A stretch of DNA of 11,814 nucleotides, from assembly GCA_003696125.1 (NCBI GenBank), contig RFHZ01000783.1:1-11814 (forward strand), read 5' to 3'. Shown one piece after another: positions 2-11,814 of the stretch; position 1 is the stretch's first letter, and each line of letters begins with the position of its first letter. Below the pieces are notes generated by a model. The model saw only the letters and a list, made by a program, of their open reading frames with translations. It was not told the DNA's origin and made no database searches. The stretch is from Nitrospinota bacterium (GTDB taxonomy: Bacteria; Tectomicrobia; Entotheonellia; J063). A program made the translations under genes and the position numbers.

Positions 2-1039
2 GATGTCGCCGTGGTAGAGATCTCCGAGGTCCTCTCCCTGCGGGCCATGGATGCCACCATCCCGCTCGATGACTATATCAAAGCTGAAGGAGGAGAGGCC
101 TTCCTGGAGCAGTTCTTCCCGGCCTTCTTTGGCAACGCCAAGGTGGAAGGGCATATCTACTCCTTCCCCTTCCAGCGGAGCACCCCGATCCTCTACTGGA
201 ACAAGGACGCCTTCCGCGAAGAGGCAGCAGCCCTCAAGAAGGCAGGCCTGGATCCGAACCGGGCACCGAAAACCTGGGATGAGCTGGTTGCCTATGCCAA
301 GATCCTGACCAAGCGAGAAGATGGAGAGGTCAAGCGGTACGGGGTCATCATTCCAGGAGGATGGAACGACTGGATCTTTGAGGCCTTTGCCCGCCAAAAC
401 GGCAGCCAGTTGATCAAAGAGGACTGGAAAACGGTCACCTTCGATACCCCGGAGAACCTGGAAGCCCTGCGGCTCTGGGTCGATCTGATGCAGAAGTACA
501 AAGTCTGCCCGGTCCTTCGTCCCTGGAACATCACCCCTGAAGACTTCATCGCCGGGGTGGCGGCGATGATGTACTATTCGACCGGTGGAATGCGTAAAGT
601 GCGGGAAAACGCCAAGTTCGAGTTTGGAGCGGCCTTCATGCCGGCCAAGAAGACCTACGGCACACCGGTAGGAGGGGGGGATTTCCATATCTTTAAGAAT
701 CGCCCCAAATCGCATCAGGATGCGGCCTGGAAATTCATCAAGTTCATGACCACCCCGGAGCAGCAGGCGTACTGGAGCCGAGAATCGGGATACATCGCGG
801 TCAATAAACGGTCTTACGATCTGCCTGAAATGCAGGAGTTCCTGAAGAAGTTCCCTCAGATGACCGTGGCACGCGATCAGCTCCAATACGCCCATCCCAA
901 AGCCATGGCGGTCAATTTCCAGTTGATCCGCAAGGCGATGACGACCAACCTGGATGCAGCCCTGGAGGGGAAAAAGACCCCGGAACAGGCGCTGCGTGAT
1001 GCCCAGAAGGCGATGGAAGCGGCCATTGCCGGACAGTGA
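2..1039 (+). CDS. ABC transporter substrate-binding protein, family 1 (UgpB/MalE type), 5'-truncated
   Basis: This is the extracytoplasmic binding protein of a carbohydrate-type ABC importer. It captures the solute and delivers it to the two permeases encoded directly downstream. The reading frame is open from base 2, so the true start, signal peptide and lipobox lie outside the window; the GTG at 11 is internal. About 345 residues are visible, compared with roughly 400-450 for the family. Typical family-1 features are the early 'PDVA'-like stretch (DVAVVEI), the hinge segment YSFPFQRSTPILYWNKDAF, and the C-terminal GGGDFHIFKN / AAWKFIKFMTTPEQQAYWS / SGYIAVNK block. That last block is most reminiscent of UgpB, the glycerol-3-phosphate binding protein, but the ligand cannot be assigned: a sugar, oligosaccharide or glycerol phosphodiester is possible. 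The stop overlaps the next gene's GTG start by four bases, which implies co-translation. Confidence 0.9.
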   Translation, partial: DVAVVEISEVLSLRAMDATIPLDDYIKAEGGEAFLEQFFPAFFGNAKVEGHIYSFPFQRSTPILYWNKDAFREEAAALKKAGLDPNRAPKTWDELVAYAKILTKREDGEVKRYGVIIPGGWNDWIFEAFARQNGSQLIKEDWKTVTFDTPENLEALRLWVDLMQKYKVCPVLRPWNITPEDFIAGVAAMMYYSTGGMRKVRENAKFEFGAAFMPAKKTYGTPVGGGDFHIFKNRPKSHQDAAWKFIKFMTTPEQQAYWSRESGYIAVNKRSYDLPEMQEFLKKFPQMTVARDQLQYAHPKAMAVNFQLIRKAMTTNLDAALEGKKTPEQALRDAQKAMEAAIAGQ

Positions 1040-1947
1040 CGATGGAAAGGCAAACCAAACGCACGAGTCTCTGGTGGTTTCTCTACCGGTGCCGGTACTA
1101 CCTCTTCCTCCTGCCGGCGCTCCTCTTTCTGGGGGTATTCGTCTATTACCCTATCGGGTACTCTCTCCTCCGGAGCTTTCAGCGCTGGGATCTCCTCCAT
1201 CCCAAACCGCGCTGGGCCGGCTGGAGGAACTACCAGCACCTCATGCAGGATCCGGTCTTCTGGACCGTGGTCAAGAATAGCCTGATCTACGTGACCTGTA
1301 CCATCTTCCCGACCATGGCGCTGGCCCTCTTCTTTGCCATCCTCATTGACGAGCGGGCACGGGGGAGGGCCTATTATATCTACAGCCTCTTCTATCCAAC
1401 CCTGATCCCGATGGCCGCGGCGGCCATGCTCTGGGTCTTCATCTATTCCCCCAACCTGGGCCTGATGAACATCGTCCTCTCCCGTTTTGGCCTTCCCAAG
1501 CTGGGCTGGTTGGGAAGCGCCGACACCTCCCTGTGGGCCTTAATCATCATGAGCATCTGGAAGTATCTGGGATTCTACACCCTGATCTATCTCTCTGGCC
1601 TGCAAAACCTCGACAAGTCGCTCTACGAAAGCGCCTTTATCGATGGAGCCGGCTGGTGGCGGCGTCACCTCTCTATTACGGTTCCCCTGGTCGCTCCCAC
1701 CTCTCTCTTCATCTTCATCGTGGGAGTGATCCTCTCCTTTCGCGTCTTTGCCCCGGTACATCTGATGACAGAAGGGGGACCGGGGAACAGCTCTAACGTG
1801 ATTATCTACTACATCTATGAAAACGGCTTTAAATTCTTTCAACTCGGTATCGCCTTTGCCCTGACCGTACTGCTGGTCATTTCCCTCCTTCTGCTGGTCC
1901 TTTTGATCTTCGGCTTTCTGGATAAGCGGGTAACCTATACGGGATAA
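1036..1947 (+). CDS. ABC transporter permease, MalF/UgpA type
   Basis: Inner-membrane permease of the importer begun by the upstream binding protein. The 303 residues carry about six hydrophobic helices: near 22-40, 80-104, 115-137, 165-188, 220-243 and 270-294. The EAA loop that docks onto the ATPase is clear at residues 197-221 (YESAFIDGAGWWRR...VPLVAP), between the fourth and fifth helices, as in MalF/UgpA. The TEGGPGNSS segment near 245-253 is also typical of this family. The GTG at 1036 overlaps the upstream stop codon (GTGA) and is preferred. The ATG at 1042 would remove only two residues and cannot be excluded, since no strong Shine-Dalgarno sequence precedes either. The next permease follows after 38 bases. 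The family is certain; the substrate is not. Confidence 0.92.
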   Translation: MTMERQTKRTSLWWFLYRCRYYLFLLPALLFLGVFVYYPIGYSLLRSFQRWDLLHPKPRWAGWRNYQHLMQDPVFWTVVKNSLIYVTCTIFPTMALALFFAILIDERARGRAYYIYSLFYPTLIPMAAAAMLWVFIYSPNLGLMNIVLSRFGLPKLGWLGSADTSLWALIIMSIWKYLGFYTLIYLSGLQNLDKSLYESAFIDGAGWWRRHLSITVPLVAPTSLFIFIVGVILSFRVFAPVHLMTEGGPGNSSNVIIYYIYENGFKFFQLGIAFALTVLLVISLLLLVLLIFGFLDKRVTYTG

Positions 1948-1971
1948 AGGGAGACGAACCGGTCACAACAC

Positions 1972-1977
1972 GAGGAG
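1972..1977 (+). promoter_or_regulatory. Ribosome binding site of the MalG/UgpE-type permease
   Basis: GAGGAG lies eight bases before the ATG at 1986, in the 38-base gap between the two permease genes. It fixes the start of the second permease and gives it independent translation initiation. Confidence 0.7.
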
Positions 1978-1985
1978 CGGCAGCA

Positions 1986-2813
1986 ATGACGGAACGGACC
2001 TATGAACTCTGGCTCAAGGTGGCGGTGCTGCACCTGGTCGCTTTCCTGATGCTTGTCCCCTTTGCCTGGCTGGTCTCGACCGCCCTCAAGGCACCAGGAG
2101 AAGTCTTCAGCGAAACGATTCAGTGGATCCCGCAAAAACTCCGCTTTGCCAACTTCCGCGAGATCATGGATGCGGCACCGTTCATGACCTATCTCTATAA
2201 CACGATCATCGTGGTTACCAGTATCCTGGTATTGCAACTGCTCCTGATCATCCCGGCCGCGTACGCGCTGGCTCGCCTGGAGTTTCCGGGCAGTGATTAC
2301 GCCATCGTCCTTTTCATCATCCAGATCATGCTCCCGATCGAAACCATCCTGCTTCCCAACTACTTCCTGATCAAAGCCTTTGGCCTGCTCAACACCAAGA
2401 CCGCCCTGGTCCTCCCCTTTGTGGCCAGTGGGTTTGGGACCTTCCTCTTTCGCCAGACCTTCAAGCAGATCCCTAAAGAGCTGGAGGACGCTGCTCGCAT
2501 CGATGGTGCCGGGCACTTCCGCTTCATCTGGTCCGTACTCCTCCCCCTCTCCCGGCCCACCCTGGTTACCTTCTCCATGCTGAGCATCGCCACCCACTGG
2601 GACGATTTCTACTGGCCGCTGATTGTGACGGAAACGGACAATGTGCGTACCCTGGCCATCGGATTGGGACTATTCGTAAAACAGGAAAGCGGATCAGAGT
2701 GGAACCTGTTGATGGCGGCTACCCTCTTTGTCTGCGCACCGGTGATTCTCCTCTTTTTGATCGGACAGCGGGCCTTTATCAAGAATTTTTTGACCTCAGG
2801 GATCAAGGGATGA
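1986..2813 (+). CDS. ABC transporter permease, MalG/UgpE type
   Basis: Second membrane subunit of the same importer, pairing with the MalF-like protein. The 275 residues show six predicted helices: near 12-32, 72-97, 104-127, 138-155, 186-210 and 242-262. The EAA loop at 165-191 (ELEDAARIDGAGHFRF...LPLSRP) is a close fit to the consensus. The C-terminal FIKNFLTSGIKG ends like the usual '...GLxxGAVKG' tail of MalG/UgpE proteins. The ATG at 1986 is supported by GAGGAG eight bases upstream. No ATP-binding subunit follows: the next gene is on the opposite strand. The importer therefore probably uses a shared MsmK/UgpC-type ATPase encoded elsewhere, which is common for this class, or one encoded upstream of the window. 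Confidence 0.93.
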   Translation: MTERTYELWLKVAVLHLVAFLMLVPFAWLVSTALKAPGEVFSETIQWIPQKLRFANFREIMDAAPFMTYLYNTIIVVTSILVLQLLLIIPAAYALARLEFPGSDYAIVLFIIQIMLPIETILLPNYFLIKAFGLLNTKTALVLPFVASGFGTFLFRQTFKQIPKELEDAARIDGAGHFRFIWSVLLPLSRPTLVTFSMLSIATHWDDFYWPLIVTETDNVRTLAIGLGLFVKQESGSEWNLLMAATLFVCAPVILLFLIGQRAFIKNFLTSGIKG

Positions 2814-2887: not shown

Positions 2888-3868
2888 CTACAGGCGGGTG
2901 GTCAGTGTATACCCGGTAAAGCTCAGAAGCCCCAGGCCGAGGAAGAACTGGAACAGCTTCCTGTTCTCCTGTTCCAGAATATCCCCCACCACTTCCCGTC
3001 GGGTAAACACGTTCTGCCAGCGTGGTCCCAGGGTGACACGCTGGTAGGTTCCTCCTGTGACCTGAGCGATATGGCGGAGCCTCTCTTCGTTCAGGCGGGT
3101 GGTGACTACCTGATCATCGATCTTCAGGTACCCGGTAAATCTCCCCTGCCCGTCATAGAGGGGAATCGGCGAAGGAGAAGCCGTTCCCAGTCCAAAGGTC
3201 ACAACTTTGATTCCCCGCCGTACCGCTTTGGCCAGCACCGGCTCCAGCCCCTGCTGTTTATCCCCTCCATCAGAGAAGAGGAGCAGGAGTTTCTGTCGAG
3301 TCGGGTCCTTTGTGCACAGGGCGATCCCGGTCTCGATGGCCTGGGCAATGTCTGATCCTCCCAGCCCGACGGCATCGACCTGTACCCAGTGCCGGAGGAT
3401 GAAGTCCAGGGCAGAGAGATCTTCGGTCAGCTCGGCCTGCCGGAAGGAGGTGCCGGCAAAGGTGACCAACCCGACACGGTTCCCCCGGAGATCGGCCAAA
3501 AGGGCTCTGGCTATCTCTTTCGCCTTTTCCAGGCGGGAACGCCGACCGTAATCCTCTGCCGCCATACTCTTGGACACATCCATGAGGAAAACCACATCCA
3601 GCGTCCCCTCTCGCAAGCGCAGGGTTCCGGCAGGAAGGCGGGGATCGGAGAGGGCAAACACTATGCTTACTACGGTGGCAAACAGGAAGGCCAGTCGCCA
3701 TCCATCGTGCCGCAGGCGCGGGAAACGGGGGACAGATGCCTGCAGCAGGGTTATATCCCCCCAGGCCCTTACGAGCCTGTCTCTGCGTCTCCTCCCACTA
3801 CGAGAGATCCCATAGAACGCCGGGAGCAAGAGGAGGAGAAGAAAGGCCAGCGGTTGAGCAAAGTCCAT
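2888..3868 (-). CDS. vWA-domain membrane protein (BatB / MxaL-like)
   Basis: Last gene of the MoxR operon. The 326-residue protein has an N-terminal helix (5-21), a second helix (58-74), a von Willebrand factor A domain (about 90-285) and a C-terminal helix (306-322). This is the architecture of BatB and MxaL, with the vWA domain on the outer side of the membrane. The MIDAS metal site reads DVSKS (D97, S99, S101). The second loop is GGSD, with Ser172 where Thr is usual, and the third is FSDGGD (D200). The protein probably binds a divalent cation and a protein partner, working with the MoxR ATPase to mature a client. The start follows AAGGA with seven-base spacing, 15 bases after the TPR gene ends. 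The family is clear; the client is unknown. Confidence 0.88.
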   Translation of the reverse strand: MDFAQPLAFLLLLLLPAFYGISRSGRRRRDRLVRAWGDITLLQASVPRFPRLRHDGWRLAFLFATVVSIVFALSDPRLPAGTLRLREGTLDVVFLMDVSKSMAAEDYGRRSRLEKAKEIARALLADLRGNRVGLVTFAGTSFRQAELTEDLSALDFILRHWVQVDAVGLGGSDIAQAIETGIALCTKDPTRQKLLLLFSDGGDKQQGLEPVLAKAVRRGIKVVTFGLGTASPSPIPLYDGQGRFTGYLKIDDQVVTTRLNEERLRHIAQVTGGTYQRVTLGPRWQNVFTRREVVGDILEQENRKLFQFFLGLGLLSFTGYTLTTRL

Positions 3869-3883
3869 GGTCCTGTCCTTCTC

Positions 3884-4450
3884 TTAGATATCTGAACGGG
3901 GAGAAGGCCGGCCTGCCCCTTCCTTCCCCAGGCCTTTCCCCTCTTCCTTATGCAGGCCCGGGGCCTGCTGGAGGGAGGCCTTCGCCTGTCCTCCCTTCTC
4001 CAAGAGGACAAAATGATAGAGCCGTTCCAGGTTAAATTTCACCTCTGGATCACTCGGATCGATGCGGAGCGCCTCTTTGAACATTTCGGCTGCCCCTTCC
4101 GGCTCTTCTAGAGCGAGCAACACAACCCCCAGATTGTAGAGGGCCCGCTTCCGGAGCAGGCGATTATCGGTCTGGTAGGCCTGCCGGAAGAGGTCAGCGG
4201 CCCGGGAGAAGTTCTGAGCCTCATAGTTCAATACTCCCTGGTTATAGAGCAGGAGTTTTTGATTGGCCAGCCAGTACCGGCTGGCCTGCGTGTAAGCCTG
4301 GGTATCGAAGCGCTTTTCCGCTACCGCTCGGTTTCCGGCAGCAACGAGTCGGCTATACTGCGTCTGGTAGGCGGCAAAGGCCAGGCAGAGCATGCCACCG
4401 ATGAACAGGATTCCATAAAGGATTCTGGAGTCATTGATCAACTTGCGCAT
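3884..4450 (-). CDS. TPR-repeat membrane-anchored protein (BatC / MxaK-like)
   Basis: This 188-residue protein has a short basic N-terminus, one membrane helix (about 11-28), two tetratricopeptide repeats (about 66-99 and 102-135, with YNQGVLNYEAQNFSRA and YNLGVVLLALEEPEGA cores followed by ALRIDPSDPEV), and a hydrophilic tail rich in Gly, Lys, Glu and Pro from about 152 on that is likely disordered. A small TPR protein lies between the two vWA genes in Bat operons, and MxaK occupies the same place in mxa clusters. The protein most likely serves as a scaffold between the vWA proteins at the membrane. The start is well supported by AGGAGG seven bases upstream, after a 28-base gap from the preceding vWA gene. 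The two repeats are clear by eye; the role is inferred from position. Confidence 0.85.
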   Translation of the reverse strand: MRKLINDSRILYGILFIGGMLCLAFAAYQTQYSRLVAAGNRAVAEKRFDTQAYTQASRYWLANQKLLLYNQGVLNYEAQNFSRAADLFRQAYQTDNRLLRKRALYNLGVVLLALEEPEGAAEMFKEALRIDPSDPEVKFNLERLYHFVLLEKGGQAKASLQQAPGLHKEEGKGLGKEGAGRPSPRSDI

Positions 4451-4457
4451 CCTGTCT

Positions 4458-4463
4458 CCTCCT
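4458..4463 (-). promoter_or_regulatory. Strong Shine-Dalgarno of the TPR gene
   Basis: On the minus strand AGGAGG stands seven bases before the ATG at 4450. The TPR gene is the first in the operon not reached by an ATGA overlap, so it needs its own initiation signal, and this is one of the strongest in the window. Confidence 0.7.
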
Positions 4464-4478
4464 CTTTACAAGCTCCCT

Positions 4479-5399
4479 TTATACGGTAATAACCCATGTC
4501 TGTTTCAGGAGAAAAGCCACCATGAGGAGAGCGAGCGCGGTGAGGGCAAAGAAGGGGTAAAGCTCTTTGCGCTCTGTACTCTGCACCACTTTTACCGGTG
4601 ACCTCTCCAGCCGATCGATCTCCCGCAGTGCTGCCTCCAACTCCTCTCCCCGGTTGATGTTGAAGTAGCGTCCCTGGGCCCGCCGGGTAAGCTGGACGAT
4701 ACTGGAGTCTTCCTCGAGTTCCATACCGAGCAGGTAGAGCATGACCCCTTCCTGCCGCAAGCGCCTGATAATCTGTCGTTCTTCATCTGGGGTCATGGAA
4801 TCGAGGCCATCGGTGAGAAGCAAGAGGAGCTTTGTTCGGGCCTGTCCCAGCTCCTGAAAATGATGGAGAGCTTTGAGAAGGGCGTGGACAAGGTAAGTTC
4901 CCCGGAGTTTAGAGGGGAGGAGACCATCCAGGCGCTGCAACCGTTGCCGCAGCATGGTGCTGTCGGTGCTGAGGGGCCACACGCCAAAAGCGTCATCACC
5001 AAAGACAAGGAGACCGAGTCGATCCTGTGGATGTCTTTGCACGAATTGCAGGCTGGCCTGCCGGACCAGATCCAGCTTCCGTACCCGCCCCTGTTCCGGT
5101 CCGGCGGGGATCTTTCCCTCCATGCTGAGGGAGAGATCGAGGACCAGGAGGATGTCGCGCACTTCCACCACCTGCTCCTGCTTCTCCAGAGTCCCCTGGG
5201 GTCTGGCCAGGGCGATGAGCAGGAACAGCACAGCGGTCCAGGTCAGTCCAGCGACCAACAGGGCGGGGGGATCGATCTGCCGTTCTTTCTTCAGTAAGGC
5301 CACGTTGGAATAATACCAGGCAGAGCGAGGAGCCAGGAGATAGGGCCAGAGGAGCAAGAGTCCTGCCAGCAGTAGCCATGGATCGGCCAACCGTATCAT
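4479..5399 (-). CDS. vWA-domain membrane protein (BatA / MxaC-like)
   Basis: This 306-residue protein has two N-terminal helices (about 8-23 and 46-66), a vWA domain (about 80-265) and a C-terminal helix (about 281-298), the standard BatA layout. The MIDAS motif is DLSLS (D88, S90, S92), with T168 in the second loop (RGTY) and D197 in LLTDGLD, so the metal-binding set is complete. The frame is open upstream to 5507, but the ATG at 5399 is chosen. It overlaps the stop of the preceding gene as ATGA, has AGAGG upstream, and starts directly with MIRLADPWLLL, the typical N-terminus of this family; the extra 36 residues are not family-like. Its place corresponds to mxaC. It is expected to act as a membrane partner of the MoxR ATPase. 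Confidence 0.9.
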   Translation of the reverse strand: MIRLADPWLLLAGLLLLWPYLLAPRSAWYYSNVALLKKERQIDPPALLVAGLTWTAVLFLLIALARPQGTLEKQEQVVEVRDILLVLDLSLSMEGKIPAGPEQGRVRKLDLVRQASLQFVQRHPQDRLGLLVFGDDAFGVWPLSTDSTMLRQRLQRLDGLLPSKLRGTYLVHALLKALHHFQELGQARTKLLLLLTDGLDSMTPDEERQIIRRLRQEGVMLYLLGMELEEDSSIVQLTRRAQGRYFNINRGEELEAALREIDRLERSPVKVVQSTERKELYPFFALTALALLMVAFLLKQTWVITV

Positions 5400-6400
5400 G
5401 ATGCGGGTATCCTCTCGAGCTTTTCCAAAAGAGTAATCCCCTTCCACCACAGCTCCCGTTCCTTCCCAGGATCGGGGGCTGTGGGCCGGTATTTCAGGAT
5501 GGCACACTCTTCTAGCAGGGCCAGGATCTCCTGGGCAAGAGGAACTCCATCCAGCAGAGGTGCGAGTTCAGCCGGAGTCAAAGTGGCAGCAGACAACCCA
5601 AACTCTGCCTGCAGGTACTGGCGAAAGATCTGGTCCAGTCTTTCTCCTGCAGAAAGGGAGGAAGTCTCCAAAGGGGGAAAGAAGTACAGCTCCTCTCTCC
5701 GCAAGGCCTGCAGTGCCTGCTCGGCTGCGGAAAGGGCCACAGGATGCTGAGGGGAATTGGAGAGTCGCTTTTGCCACCATCTCCGCGTCCACCCTCCTAC
5801 CGAGGTGACCAGAAAGACGGTACCCAGGGTCAAGGTCATCCCGATAGGGAGCGCTCGCCTGTCAGGGAGAACTGCTTTGGGTTTTACCGGCTGGGTGGTT
5901 TGATAGGGACCGATACGAGAGATATTGATGGTCACCGGCTGTGTAAACAGGCTCTGGTAGGTGTAGGTCTTCTCTGGAGCAACCCCTTTCCTGGAGGTGG
6001 CATAGAGGATCTCCAGGGGAGCAAAGCGGGTGGTCAGGGGAGTGGGGCCGAAGTACTGGAGACGGTAGTGGACACGATAGATCTTCTTTCCTTGCTTTTG
6101 CGTGGAAGAGGTGATGGCCAGGTCTCGGATCTCAAACGGACCATGGGTTTCTCCTTTTTGGGGGAGATTGACCAGATCGATCACCACCCCTGGTTCAGCC
6201 TCGATGATCAGCGTGAGCGGGATTTCATCCCCGATGAAGTATCCATAGTCACGCGGGAGTTCGAAGTGGGAGAAGATCGGAAAGTGCCTGCTACGAGCAG
6301 TTGCAGTGGGGGAAGGAGTAACGAGAAACTTTGGCACCATCAGGTAGCCGATAGGAACCACTATCCCTATCAAGATAAGGATCAGGAGTCTCTTCTTCAT
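5396..6400 (-). CDS. Two-TM membrane protein of the MoxR operon (MxaA-like position and topology)
   Basis: This 334-residue protein has a basic N-terminus and signal-anchor helix (4-23), an extracytoplasmic region of about 160 residues that appears rich in beta strands (about 40-165, beginning HFELPRDYGYFIGDEIPLTLIIEAEPG, like an Ig/BatD-type sandwich), a second helix (185-203), a basic WTRRWWQKR stop-transfer segment, and a cytoplasmic helical domain of about 125 residues (205-334). No catalytic motif is visible. The gene sits third, between the DUF58 and first vWA genes, exactly where mxaA lies in mxaRSACKL, and MxaA has a similar size and topology. It overlaps both neighbours by ATGA. Its own AGGAGGG lies seven bases upstream of the ATG at 6400. 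A role in bridging the cytoplasmic ATPase to periplasmic or external partners is inferred from topology alone. Confidence 0.75.
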   Translation of the reverse strand: MKKRLLILILIGIVVPIGYLMVPKFLVTPSPTATARSRHFPIFSHFELPRDYGYFIGDEIPLTLIIEAEPGVVIDLVNLPQKGETHGPFEIRDLAITSSTQKQGKKIYRVHYRLQYFGPTPLTTRFAPLEILYATSRKGVAPEKTYTYQSLFTQPVTINISRIGPYQTTQPVKPKAVLPDRRALPIGMTLTLGTVFLVTSVGGWTRRWWQKRLSNSPQHPVALSAAEQALQALRREELYFFPPLETSSLSAGERLDQIFRQYLQAEFGLSAATLTPAELAPLLDGVPLAQEILALLEECAILKYRPTAPDPGKERELWWKGITLLEKLERIPAS

Positions 6401-7269
6401 CCGCCTTCCCTCCTTCGCCTGAGAAAGAGCTGTGTCAGATCATCGATATAATGGGTTTGCGAGGTGATCCGGATATAGGGGATGTGGAAGCGTTGGAATA
6501 GCGAGGCGAGCTGTGCCTGTCTCTTCAGGTTTACCCTTGTCCGGGAAAGCCGGTACACCACTCTTTGCCCTGATTCCAGATCACGCACAGCGATTCGTCC
6601 CTCTCCAGCAGGAACCTCCTCTTCGCGGGGATCGGCCATCACAAGGGCAATCAGGTCGTGACGGAAACGGAGCCGGTCCAGCATCTGCGAGAGCTGTTCT
6701 TCATCCTCGGTCAAAAAGTCGGAAAGGAGGAAGAGCAGAGCAGGTGAAGGGACCCGGTTTTCGGCCACCTCGGTCGCTATCCGGAAATCGGTATGCCCCT
6801 GGTGCGTCGGATGGGTAAGGATGGCTTCCGGGAGCATATGCTGGTACCGGGAAGAACGCCGCGGCGGGAAGTAGCACTCGAGCCGATCACTAAAGCCGGC
6901 CAATCCGATGCGATCGTAGGCCAGCAAAGCCGAATAGACTAAGGAGGCGCTGACCTCTGCGGCCAGCGTTCTCTTCGTTACCCGATAACTCCCAAAATCC
7001 ATGGAAGCACTCATATCCACCAGGAGCATCACGGTGATTTCCTTCTCCTCGTAGTAGGTGTTGACCAGGAGCGGAGTTCCTCCCCGTCGCGCGGTCGCTG
7101 CCCAGTTGATCCTGCCTACCCCTTCCCCTAGCTGGTACTCCCTGATCTGATCGAACTCCAGTCCCGAACCTCGCTGCCGACTCGGGTGCTGTCCCAAGCG
7201 GAAATGATTCGCAGGCCACCTGATATAGAGGGGAATACGAGCAACATGCTGCAGAATGGTTTCTTTCAT
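6397..7269 (-). CDS. DUF58 family protein with vWA-like MIDAS (MxaS-like)
   Basis: This 290-residue soluble protein has no evident membrane helix. It carries the DUF58 signature around 40-62 (FDQIREYQLGEGVGRINWAATARRGG; the usual R-x-Y-x-x-G-D here has Glu for Asp) and then a vWA-like domain with DMSAS (D85, S87, S89) and a third-loop LLSDF (D184). DUF58 genes are very commonly directly downstream of MoxR ATPase genes, and mxaS belongs to this family. The protein is thought to be a cytoplasmic or membrane-peripheral partner of the ATPase. It overlaps the MoxR stop codon (ATGA at 7269-7266) and its own stop overlaps the next start in the same way. The family call is firm; the molecular role is known only in outline. 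Confidence 0.92.
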   Translation of the reverse strand: MKETILQHVARIPLYIRWPANHFRLGQHPSRQRGSGLEFDQIREYQLGEGVGRINWAATARRGGTPLLVNTYYEEKEITVMLLVDMSASMDFGSYRVTKRTLAAEVSASLVYSALLAYDRIGLAGFSDRLECYFPPRRSSRYQHMLPEAILTHPTHQGHTDFRIATEVAENRVPSPALLFLLSDFLTEDEEQLSQMLDRLRFRHDLIALVMADPREEEVPAGEGRIAVRDLESGQRVVYRLSRTRVNLKRQAQLASLFQRFHIPYIRITSQTHYIDDLTQLFLRRRREGG

Positions 7270-8255
7270 GGAATTTCCACCTTTCCTAATATCTGTTGAA
7301 TCACCTCTTCCGGAGTAAGACCCTCGCTCTCTGCACGAAAGTCGAGCAGGATGCGATGACGCAGCACATCATAAGCCACGGCTTTTACGTCTTCTGGCAA
7401 TACGTAGTCCCGTCCCTGGAAGAAGGCCTGAACCCGGGCGGCTCTCCGCAGATTCATGGTGCCACCGCGGGGGGAGGCGCCCAGGCGGATTTTGGTACGC
7501 AGATCCTGCAGGCCGTTGTACTGCTCGGGATGACGGGTTGCCCGTACAATGCGGACAATGTACTGCTTGATCTGGTCATCGACGTAGACCGTCTCCTTGA
7601 TCTCCTCTCGCATGCGGATCAGTTGCTCTGGAGAGGTGACCACCTGCAGGTCTTGCAGCGGGTTGCGTCGATCCAGGGAGGGGAGATCGAGGATCTTGAG
7701 CTCCTCGGCCTCCTCCGGGTAATCGACCAGCAGCTTAAAAAGGAAGCGGTCCAGTTGCGCTTCGGGCAGGGGATAGGTTCCCTCCTGCTCAATCGGGTTC
7801 TGTGTGGCCAGCACGATGAACGGATCGTTGAGGGCAAAGGTCTCTGTACCGATGGTCACCTCTCGCTCCTGCATCGCCTGCAGGAACGCGGCCTGGACCT
7901 TAGGAGGGGTCCGGTTAATCTCGTCGGCCAGGAGAAAGTGGGTATCCAGGATCGGTCCCTTCTGCACCAGAAACCGGTGGGCATCCGGCTGGTAGATCAG
8001 GGTGCCGGTAATATCACTCGGCATCATATCGGGGAGGAGCTGAATCCGGCGAAAACTCCCTCCGGTGACCTTCCCCAGTGCACTGATCAACTGCGTCTTG
8101 GCCAGACCTGGTACCCCCTCGAGTAAGACATGGCCATCGGCAAGCAGGGCCATGAGCACCTTCTCGATAAGGGGTAACTGACCCAGCACCACCTTGCTCA
8201 CCTCTGCAGTAATGGCGGCGATGACCTCTCGATTGCTTGTCCCCCGGTTATCCAT
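7266..8255 (-). CDS. moxR: MoxR family AAA+ ATPase
   Basis: First gene of the operon and its motor: a cytoplasmic AAA+ ATPase of 329 residues that is expected to form a hexamer and remodel a client together with the vWA proteins. All core motifs are present: Walker A EGVPGLAKT (46-54), Walker B FLLADE (107-112), sensor 1 ATQNP (N153), an arginine-finger candidate in LDRF (R170), and sensor 2 GASPRG (R263). The GTYPLPEAQLDRF stretch is diagnostic for MoxR. An ATG at 8291 would add 12 residues, but it has no Shine-Dalgarno, while the ATG at 8255 has AGAGGG with seven-base spacing and is preferred. Downstream order and overlaps show co-transcription with five partner genes. In mxa clusters the equivalent MxaR is needed for active methanol dehydrogenase; here the client is unknown. 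Confidence 0.95.
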   Translation of the reverse strand: MDNRGTSNREVIAAITAEVSKVVLGQLPLIEKVLMALLADGHVLLEGVPGLAKTQLISALGKVTGGSFRRIQLLPDMMPSDITGTLIYQPDAHRFLVQKGPILDTHFLLADEINRTPPKVQAAFLQAMQEREVTIGTETFALNDPFIVLATQNPIEQEGTYPLPEAQLDRFLFKLLVDYPEEAEELKILDLPSLDRRNPLQDLQVVTSPEQLIRMREEIKETVYVDDQIKQYIVRIVRATRHPEQYNGLQDLRTKIRLGASPRGGTMNLRRAARVQAFFQGRDYVLPEDVKAVAYDVLRHRILLDFRAESEGLTPEEVIQQILGKVEIP

Positions 8256-8434
8256 GGCTTTTCCCTCTGCTGGTTCTGCCCTGAGAGCCATTCATTTCTT
8301 TTCGCTTTCTCATCGGCAATATCTTCCTGAGAGATTAGAGAATTTTCGAGGGGAGGGAAACCCCTCTTAACTCTCCTTCTCCACTGCTTTTACTATTCAG
8401 GATACCCCTTCTTTCCCCTCTCTTCTGTGCCAAT

Positions 8435-9010: not shown

Positions 9011-11374
9011 ATGGAAAAAGAGGAGAAAATACTGCAACTCGAGATTCCCGTATTGCTCCCCGCTATCGCGGATAACCGTGATCAATGCGTGGAGCGACTC
9101 ACCGAGCGGATCGCAAACTACTATAAAGGGATCACCAGAGTCCACGTAGACCGGAAAGATGGGGAAGCTCTCCTCTGCCTGCACTACGATCCCAATCTGG
9201 TCTCCCTGGAATGGGTCAGGCGGGTGGCTGAGGAGGCAGGAGCAGAGGTGACCAGACGTTATCAGCATGAAACCCTTCCTGTTACCGGTATGGATTGTCC
9301 CGATTGTGCGGGAAGCCTGGAGCACCTGCTGGGCCGTATGGATGGCATCATAGACGTCGCTGTCAACTACGCGGCCGAGAAGATGCGGGTGGAGTACGAT
9401 ACCACGCTGATCACGCACGAGGAGATTGTCCGGCGTGTGCAGAGTATGGGCTATGAGATTGTGGAAGAACGACAGCAGAGGTGGGTTCAAGAGCATAGGG
9501 AATTGGTGCTCTCCTTGCTGTCGGGGGGCTTTCTGGCCGGAGGATTTTTGGGAGAATGGCTCTTCGGACTCCCGCGCACTGCAGCCGTGGTGCTTTATCT
9601 CCTCGCCTATCTGACCGGCGGGTATGATGCCACCCGGCACGGGATCACGGCTGCACGCCATCTCCGCTTTGATATCGACTTTCTGATGGTGGTGGCAGCT
9701 TTAGGAGCGGCCATAGTCGGTGAATGGGCGGAGGGAGCGCTCCTCCTCTTCCTCTTCAGCCTGGGCCATGCCCTGGAACACTACGCCATGGGACGGGCAC
9801 GACGGGCTATCCAGGCCTTAGGGGAGCTGACACCCAAAACGGCCCGGGTGAGACGGGATGGGCAAGAGCAAGAGTTACCGGTCACCGAACTGCAACGGGG
9901 AGACGTGGTGATTGTCCGTCCCGGAGAGCGGATACCGATCGACGGTACCGTGGTGGAAGGGCGTTCTGCCGTTGATGAAAGTCCCATCACCGGGGAAAGC
10001 CTGCCGGTGGAAAAAACAATAGATGATCCGGTCTTTGCCGGCACGCTCAACGGTGACGGGTCTCTAGAAATCGTGGTTACCAAACTGGCCAGGGACACGA
10101 CCCTGGCCCGCATCGTCCAGATGGTGGAGGAGGCACAGACGCAGAAATCACCCACCCAGCGCTTCACAGAGCGATTTGAACGGATCTTTGTTCCGGTTGT
10201 ACTGGGGGGTGTTCTGGCGGTAGCTGTCTCTCCTCCCCTCATCGGATGGCTCCCCTGGTCAGAAGCGTTTCTTCGCGCCATGACTATTCTTGTGGCTGCC
10301 TCTCCCTGTGCACTGGCCATCGCCATCCCGTCCACGGTTCTCGCCGGAATCGCCCAGGCAGCACGCAACGGTGTGTTGATCAAAGGGGGTGTATATCTGG
10401 AAAATCTGGGACGCCTGAAAGCCATGGCCTTCGATAAGACCGGTACCATCACCCGTGGTCAGCCGGAGGTGACCGATATCATTCCTGCCCACGAAAACGG
10501 GGAACGCGAACTATTGAGCCTCGCCGCAACGGTAGAGAGCCGTTCCACGCATCCCCTGGCTCAGGCCGTTGTCCGCAAGGCGCAAGAGCAAGGGATCGCC
10601 CTTTCCGAAGCAGTGGGAGAACTGTACTCGTTCACCGGCCGAGGGGTGCAGGCAGAGTTGAACGGGCAGGTGGTGCGGGTAGGGAATATCACCCTGTTCA
10701 CCGAGCAGCAAGAGGCGATACCAGAGCACATGACTTCAACCGTGCACCGCCTGGAGGCGGAAGGGAAAACCACCATGCTCGTCCAGATGGACCAGCGCTT
10801 CTATGGGGTCATCGCCGTGGCCGATCAACCCCGTCCCGAAGCTAGAGCTACCTTAGCGCAGCTCAGAACACTGGGAATCCCCAATCTCATCATGCTTACC
10901 GGAGATAACGAGCGGGTAGCGGCGGCTATTGCTCATGCTGTGGGGTTGACCACCTACCGGGCCAATCTCCTACCCCAGGAGAAGGTTGCTGCAATCAAGA
11001 CCCTGCTGGACACCTATGGAGAGGTGGCCATGGTCGGGGATGGGGTGAACGATGCTCCTGCCTTAACCCAGGCCACGGTAGGCATTGCCATGGGGGCCAG
11101 AGGCACCGATGTGGCACTGGAAACCGCCGATGTCGCCCTCATGGCCGACGATCTCTCCAAGCTGCCATTTGCCGTGGCCCTGAGTCGTCAGGCTCGTCAT
11201 ATTATCTGGCAGAACCTGTTCCTGTCTTTGGGAGTCATTGCCGCGTTGGTTCCGACAGCCCTGTTGGGGATGGCCGGCATTGGGGTTGCTATCGCCTTCC
11301 ATGAGGGAAGCACGCTTCTGGTGGTGGCCAATGCGCTGCGGCTATTACGCTTTCACGGGAAGAAGCCGTCCTGA
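9011..11374 (+). CDS. P1B-type heavy-metal-exporting ATPase (SPC/HEG, P1B-4-like) with N-terminal HMA domains
   Basis: This 787-residue membrane pump exports a divalent transition metal at the cost of ATP. Order of parts: a degenerate HMA-like domain (about 6-81), an HMA domain with CPDC (C96, C99), eight membrane helices, the actuator domain with TGES (327-330), the P-domain with DKTGT (phosphorylated D475), the N-domain with the P1B-specific HP pair (H514-P515), TGDN, and GDGVNDAP (676-683). The membrane metal site reads SPC (431-433) followed by six residues and Pro, rather than CPC, and the last helices carry HEGST...N (764-766 onward). Those two signatures define the P1B-4 group (CoaT, PfeT, CtpD), which moves Co(II), Fe(II), Ni(II) or Zn(II). 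The start has AAGGGAAG upstream. The gene precedes a liv permease by 36 bases in the same direction. Confidence 0.94.
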   Translation: MEKEEKILQLEIPVLLPAIADNRDQCVERLTERIANYYKGITRVHVDRKDGEALLCLHYDPNLVSLEWVRRVAEEAGAEVTRRYQHETLPVTGMDCPDCAGSLEHLLGRMDGIIDVAVNYAAEKMRVEYDTTLITHEEIVRRVQSMGYEIVEERQQRWVQEHRELVLSLLSGGFLAGGFLGEWLFGLPRTAAVVLYLLAYLTGGYDATRHGITAARHLRFDIDFLMVVAALGAAIVGEWAEGALLLFLFSLGHALEHYAMGRARRAIQALGELTPKTARVRRDGQEQELPVTELQRGDVVIVRPGERIPIDGTVVEGRSAVDESPITGESLPVEKTIDDPVFAGTLNGDGSLEIVVTKLARDTTLARIVQMVEEAQTQKSPTQRFTERFERIFVPVVLGGVLAVAVSPPLIGWLPWSEAFLRAMTILVAASPCALAIAIPSTVLAGIAQAARNGVLIKGGVYLENLGRLKAMAFDKTGTITRGQPEVTDIIPAHENGERELLSLAATVESRSTHPLAQAVVRKAQEQGIALSEAVGELYSFTGRGVQAELNGQVVRVGNITLFTEQQEAIPEHMTSTVHRLEAEGKTTMLVQMDQRFYGVIAVADQPRPEARATLAQLRTLGIPNLIMLTGDNERVAAAIAHAVGLTTYRANLLPQEKVAAIKTLLDTYGEVAMVGDGVNDAPALTQATVGIAMGARGTDVALETADVALMADDLSKLPFAVALSRQARHIIWQNLFLSLGVIAALVPTALLGMAGIGVAIAFHEGSTLLVVANALRLLRFHGKKPS

Positions 11375-11410: not shown

Positions 11411-11814
11411 GTGATATCGACAATACGGCCCATAATCAACCCCAGAACGCTTGGCCTCGGAGCGGGGATAGGATTCTTGTGCTTTCTCCCCCTCCTCCTG
11501 AATCCTTACTACCTGATTATCCTGAGTTATGCCCTGGTGTATGCCATCGCCTGTTTGGGGGTTAACCTTCTCTTCGGCTATACCGGCCTGGTCTCCCTGG
11601 GTCATGCCGCCTATTTCGGGGTGGGAGCATACATGGGAGGCTTTCTATATGCCTTTTCTGAACTCAAGTCCCTCGAGCTCTATCTCCTCACCGGCCTGGT
11701 CGCGGCCACCGCTCTCGCCGCCCTTCTGGGGGCGATCTGTGTCCGGGCAACGCGCATGCACTTTGCCATCCTGACCCTGGCCTTTGCCCAGATGGTCCAC
11801 TCCCTCTTTATCAG
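11411..11814 (+). CDS. livM: Branched-chain amino acid ABC transporter permease, LivM family, 3'-truncated
   Basis: This frame starts at GTG 11411, seven bases after CGAGG, and stays open to the window end (134 codons plus two bases). There is no in-frame ATG between the ATPase stop and this GTG. Hydrophobic helices follow one another at about 15-32, 35-56, 62-82 and 86-110. The LGVNLLFGYTGLVSLGHAAYFGVGAYMGG block (about 49-77) is the hallmark of LivM/LivH permeases, and RATRMHFAILTLAFAQMV (113-130) fits LivM in particular. LivM forms the membrane pore with LivH for branched-chain amino acids; related systems take up urea or amides. LivH is not upstream, where it usually sits, so it may lie downstream or the operon order may be altered. 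Confidence 0.87.
   Translation, partial: MISTIRPIINPRTLGLGAGIGFLCFLPLLLNPYYLIILSYALVYAIACLGVNLLFGYTGLVSLGHAAYFGVGAYMGGFLYAFSELKSLELYLLTGLVAATALAALLGAICVRATRMHFAILTLAFAQMVHSLFI

Follow-up and report, generated by a model that had tools for sequence, protein, structure and literature searches.

A six-gene MoxR/vWA cluster in a Nitrospinota genome is sister to proteobacterial mxaRSACKL and lies apart from mxaFJGI

Background

MoxR proteins are in general viewed as chaperones for specific complexes (PMC3893208). It is poorly understood in what way MoxR/vWA machines find their clients and mature them; among the cases where the client is defined, Mxa is known best. The Mxa accessory genes are reported to be essential for methanol dehydrogenase function (PMC4109929), and in Methylosinus the functions encoded 3' of mxaI are said to comprise chaperones, regulators and the insertion of calcium (PMC3615186). 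Here we describe a six-gene MoxR/vWA cluster on contig RFHZ01000783.1 of a Nitrospinota bacterium (GenBank assembly GCA_003696125.1), a stretch of 11,814 nucleotides called the window below. We show the gene content, order and integrity of the cluster and its phylogenetic placement beside Mxa and away from Bat: together with four other clusters it forms a clade, distinct from Bat, whose sister group is proteobacterial mxaRSACKL.

Accessory clusters that stand away from their dehydrogenase have been reported before. Methylophilaceae carry extra mxaRSACKL clusters apart from mxaF, also in strains without mxaFJGI (PMC4109929), and Sphaerotilus has partial mxa sets but no mxaFI with them (PMC13300288). 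By their published descriptions these clusters are like that of the window in lying away from, or in genomes without, the dehydrogenase genes, but their hosts are proteobacterial methylotrophs with XoxF. Detachment of the accessory cluster is therefore not new in itself; what is new, within our sample, is a lineage sister to Mxa outside the Proteobacteria that includes genomes without a detected enzyme.

The mxaRSACKL clusters of Methylobacterium, Paracoccus, Methylocystis and Methylococcaceae (L029-L031, L037, L101-L104) have the six gene types and their order in common with the window, including the order of the vWA paralogues, the lack of BatD in the operon, and an MxaA-like third protein with a G-x-x-x-GD motif (GYxIGDxIP in the closest). 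The window differs from them in lacking the upstream mxaFJGI genes and a downstream mxaD-like SRPBCC gene, in lying outside the Proteobacteria, and in signature residues given below. The Bat operon (MoxR-DUF58-X-BatA-BatB-BatC-BatD, as in Parabacteroides distasonis, L032) has homologues of all six window gene types and the same signature residues, but it has its own order, vWA-vWA-TPR-BatD, and forms a separate clade in the vWA, third-gene, DUF58 and concatenated trees; neither BatD nor the vWA-vWA-TPR order is present in the window operon. DUF4381-type clusters (Vibrio, Legionella, Azospirillum and Persicobacter; L092, L094-L097) have a MoxR-DUF58-X-vWA-vWA layout like that of the window, but differ in their short DUF4381 third protein, in the presence of BatD and in forming a separate clade.

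Results and discussion

The six genes and their occurrence in other genomes

Six minus-strand genes in mxaRSACKL order had been proposed for this DNA in an earlier note made from the letters alone, and the open reading frames (ORFs), all six of them open between 2888 and 8291, together with Pfam and NCBIfam searches, confirm this order:

7266..8291, minus strand: MoxR-family AAA+ ATPase in the MxaR position (Pfam AAA_3, 1e-57; probable start ATG 8255)
6397..7269, minus strand: DUF58/vWA-like protein in the MxaS position (Pfam DUF58, 1.1e-45; DMSAS, similar to a metal ion-dependent adhesion site, MIDAS)
5396..6400, minus strand: MxaA-like protein of 334 residues (tree with MxaA, 95/91; GYxIGDxIP motif)
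4479..5507, minus strand: first membrane vWA protein, MxaC/BatA paralogue (VWA, 5e-14; MIDAS DLSLS)
3884..4450, minus strand: TPR protein with one N-terminal transmembrane segment, in the MxaK position (TPR_1, 2.5e-11)
2888..3868, minus strand: second membrane vWA protein, MxaL/BatB paralogue (VWA_2, 1.7e-18; MIDAS DVSKS)

The MoxR/DUF58 and DUF58/334-residue junctions overlap by 4 bp each, and the vWA-TPR and TPR-vWA gaps measure 28 and 15 bp. The first vWA protein likely starts at an internal ATG (5399), which gives 306 residues, and from that start its junction with the 334-residue protein would overlap as well. By hydrophobicity, transmembrane segments are found in the 334-residue protein, both vWA proteins and the TPR protein, and none in MoxR or the DUF58 protein.

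Whole-genome searches of 386 genomes with the 334-residue protein recovered it at full length in four genomes besides that of the window, G003, G035, G101 and G367, and all four have the identical six-gene order, a recurrence that argues against chance. G003 belongs to the same class as the window genome, and G101 and G367 to one genus of a small phylum; most of the genomes with window-type clusters are draft or incomplete assemblies (G003 is 77% and G035 86% complete). Comparison of neighbourhoods thus kept the order in every relative but placed mxaFJGI beside none of the five clusters, one of which lies on a 172-kb contig. A full-length relative of the third gene is absent from G001 and G002, two genomes of the same class that are rich in dehydrogenases dependent on pyrroloquinoline quinone (PQQ).

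Phylogenetic position

Trees were built from 5 window-type, 8 mxa (all proteobacterial), 9 Bat and 5 DUF4381-type clusters. An old duplication gave rise to the two vWA genes found in each cluster, and each paralogue serves as root for the other; in both halves of the tree so rooted the window type branches as sister of Mxa (97/98 and 94/95), and when 15 extra MxaC sequences were included it was sister to MxaC with 100/98 and to MxaL with 96/87. The window type also groups with Mxa against Bat in the DUF58 tree (100/99) and with MxaA in the third-gene tree (95/91), while the five-gene concatenated tree sets Mxa and the window type apart from Bat and the DUF4381 type (100/100). A grouping of Bat with the window type was rejected by the five-gene approximately unbiased (AU) test (p-AU 0.0007). 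In these trees the window type stands beside Mxa as its sister and not inside it, and 17 further MxaA-type proteins from sampled Gammaproteobacteria fell without exception on the Mxa side, none of them joining the window type.

Signature residues are of the other kind. The Walker A motif of the window MoxR is GVPGLAKT, which is Bat-like, where Mxa has G(D/N)VG(V/T)GKT, and the MIDAS motifs of the window vWA proteins, DLSLS and DVSKS, are likewise Bat-like, where Mxa has DRSxS and DITxS. A position as sister to Mxa combined with Bat-like residues indicates a sister lineage of Mxa and not mxa itself; the match to mxa drawn in the earlier note thus holds for gene order and kinship but does not extend to mxa proper.

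The third protein

The 334-residue protein consists of an N-terminal hydrophobic segment, a beta domain (42-160), a transmembrane segment (187-214) and a C-terminal helical domain. It matched no family in Pfam or NCBIfam, and since authentic MxaA and MxaK (and likewise MxaS) proteins tested also match no NCBIfam model, we attribute its missing match to a gap in the library. With no usable NCBIfam or Pfam model for MxaA, MxaK or MxaS, homologues from annotated mxa clusters were used instead. In tblastn against plasmids its sole matches were three mxa clusters, in Methylobacterium bullatum, M. aquaticum and Azospirillum lipoferum, all of them weak (E 1e-3 to 0.4). An iterated profile of the third protein recovered 8/8 reference MxaA sequences, and in the reverse direction a search with a methanotroph MxaA retrieved the third genes of G101 (E 5e-7) and G367 (E 1e-7). 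A catalogue pattern scan returned the third genes of three of the four relatives and, besides these, a single sequence, MxaA from a Methylococcaceae bacterium.

A relation to MxaA, as the earlier note had supposed, is therefore borne out by the tree, the profile recovery and tblastn. The kinship was established through homologues, but the third proteins of Bat clusters and BatD are also related to the protein, so that homology alone does not separate Mxa from Bat. A sequence search of the PDB gave nothing meaningful, and Foldseek with a model of the protein (predicted local distance difference test score, pLDDT, 70) gave weak matches of low TM-score to Ig-like domains and a TRAP subunit, which we did not use as evidence.

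PQQ dehydrogenases and candidate clients

Because the window is an entire contig (C175 of G000, an assembly of 4.18 Mb in 990 contigs with 8% contamination), nothing past 11.8 kb is visible on it. Over this whole contig mxaF, xoxF and mxaJGI are absent, as is any PQQ dehydrogenase, in agreement with the earlier observation that no methanol dehydrogenase gene adjoins the cluster. Elsewhere in the genome, on contig C654 (L009, 882-4076), a PQQ dehydrogenase, a cytochrome c and a MoxJ-like substrate-binding protein stand in a row. The dehydrogenase (P0008) has 576 residues and scores 481 bits against TIGR03075, for which the cut-off is 480; as this score is marginal, we call the enzyme XoxF-like and not XoxF. 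It carries the lanthanide-type Asp at position +2 from the catalytic Asp (DWDYD, against DEWDYA in MxaF). The GC content of C654 (56.8%) is similar to that of the window contig (57.1%), which is compatible with a common origin but, given the contamination, does not prove it. The notion of a cluster separated from its client is thus accurate for the contig, where none is linked, but it has to be qualified by this set on another contig and by the detached clusters already published. Relatives with 51-55% identity stand in a set of the same three genes on Skermanella and Rhodococcus plasmids, so that this divergent XoxFGJ-like three-gene cassette has reached plasmids and also an actinomycete.

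Both G101 and G367 contain many PQQ dehydrogenases. In G367 a PQQ-dehydrogenase-like gene (L067, 2071-3885) follows the cluster on its downstream side at a distance of about 2.5 kb; in alignment it has WAYD where others have WDYD, Ala replacing the catalytic Asp, and the sister genome of G367 has fragments only of this gene in the same place (L035, 18660-19147). Over the sample, PQQ dehydrogenases were found in 3/5 genomes with the cluster as against 11/381 others (hypergeometric p ~4e-4, a value weakened by the fact that two of the three positive cluster genomes share a genus), and the association between cluster and PQQ dehydrogenase is suggestive, not tight.

As a separate observation, G002 (L154, 9755-17121) and G001 (L153, 4337-12008) carry a Bat-type DUF58-vWA-TPR-vWA set convergent with a PQQ dehydrogenase about 1.5 kb away; MoxR was not detected beside these sets.

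Proposed function and alternatives

The reading that we favor, and to which we give an even chance, is that the cluster encodes a membrane maturase sister to MxaRSACKL whose client here may be the remote XoxF-like enzyme, although across the lineage the machine has no strict tie to PQQ enzymes. Judging from what is known of Mxa and MoxR, the machine would be a membrane-anchored, ATP-driven maturation apparatus: a MoxR hexamer and the DUF58 vWA protein would act on the cytoplasmic side, the MxaA-like, TPR and two vWA proteins would keep an exported client in place at the membrane, and ATP hydrolysis and the MIDAS metal sites would drive insertion of a metal or cofactor, or remodelling of the client. 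The genome's single XoxF-like PQQ dehydrogenase, on C654, is the most likely, if weakly supported, client in the window organism, and another exported enzyme is the next most likely.

Several results weigh against this reading. The Mxa accessory genes are mainly tied to the calcium enzyme, the C654 dehydrogenase has the lanthanide-type Asp, and PqqE was not found above the cut-off in the window genome. Neither a TIGR03075 dehydrogenase nor PqqE above the cut-off was found in G003 and G035, which are incomplete as stated above, and G001 and G002 have 10-11 TIGR03075 matches and a true PqqE, yet lack the window-type third gene. The MoxR tree alone left the grouping undecided, and no AU test of a single gene rejected a Bat grouping at 0.05 (p 0.10, 0.24 and 0.41).

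Possible, though we doubt it, is that the machine serves some other exported client, either another metalloenzyme or a complex of the cell envelope, that no PQQ dehydrogenase was ever among its clients in this lineage, and that it preserves the older state out of which Mxa was later recruited to methanol dehydrogenase. The two genomes without PQQ dehydrogenase and PqqE point that way, as do the Walker A and MIDAS motifs, which are Bat-like and not of the derived Mxa form, and the lack of attached mxaFJGI in all five clusters; on the other side stand the three of five cluster genomes that do have PQQ dehydrogenases, the dehydrogenase-like gene downstream of the G367 cluster with its fragment in the sister genome, and the incompleteness of the two negative genomes. 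The earlier suggestion of another client accordingly finds some ground in G003 and G035, but the window genome itself holds a possible PQQ client. Improbable, in our judgment, is an ordinary Bat/MRP-type MoxR operon that was reordered and resembles mxa superficially, although raw scores are nearer to Bat (MoxR, 326 bits against about 140 for Mxa; DUF58, 150 against 31-57; the vWA proteins likewise), the best NCBIfam models of the vWA and TPR proteins are BatA, BatB and BatC, and the order is not strict, as the DUF58-vWA-TPR-vWA sets of G001 and G002 have the two vWA types swapped. We dropped gene order as sole proof because of these swapped sets, and did not let raw scores guide us, since Mxa sits on very long branches; slow evolution accounts for the scores, 4/5 gene trees and the concatenation put the window type with Mxa, the operon has no BatD and its vWA paralogues are in Mxa order, and the concatenated AU test largely refutes the Bat reading. 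Hardly credible is a canonical mxa operon that lost mxaFJGI through assembly fragmentation or recent deletion. The metagenome-assembled genome is indeed in 990 pieces and the window stops at contig ends, but unrelated genes on both flanks contradict this explanation, the four relatives also lack adjacent mxaFJGI, even on the 172-kb contig, and searches of the window genome turned up no calcium-type MxaF dehydrogenase.

The window may represent a non-proteobacterial lineage that split off before Mxa was tied to methanol dehydrogenase and that, where PQQ enzymes are lacking, may still mature another exported metalloenzyme, a reading that we regard as unlikely at present; were it true, that other client would reveal the origin from which Mxa was recruited. 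A lineage sister to Mxa outside the methylotrophs, with and without PQQ dehydrogenases, makes the order of events testable and allows features that arose with the methanol dehydrogenase client to be separated from older ones. An mxaRSACKL-like cluster in a metagenome is also not in itself evidence of methanol oxidation.

Flanking genes and further observations

The flanks named in the earlier note, a convergent sugar importer and a metal ATPase, were recovered by domain searches:

11..2813, plus strand: ABC sugar-type importer, substrate-binding protein and two permeases, convergent with the cluster (SBP_bac_8, BPD_transp_1)
9011..11374, plus strand: heavy-metal P1B-type ATPase with HMA domain, divergent from the cluster (TIGR01525, 656 bits)

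The importer is not part of the system, and the P1B-type ATPase is not assigned to it. An incomplete ORF at 11411-11814, running off the contig end, resembles a branched-chain amino acid ABC permease. In the window, PADLOC reported no defence family and only a generic TPR match, an Rfam scan had no matches, and promoter and terminator scans gave counts no higher than expected by chance.

Among the clusters used for comparison, the DUF4381-type MoxR/vWA/BatD cluster of Azospirillum argentinense plasmid p4 (L096, 4985-14901) adjoins arylsulfatase genes and a formylglycine-generating enzyme, and that of Persicobacter psychrovividus pPP4 (L097, 4152-13319) adjoins arylsulfatase genes, which suggests sulfatases as a further class of client for MoxR machines.

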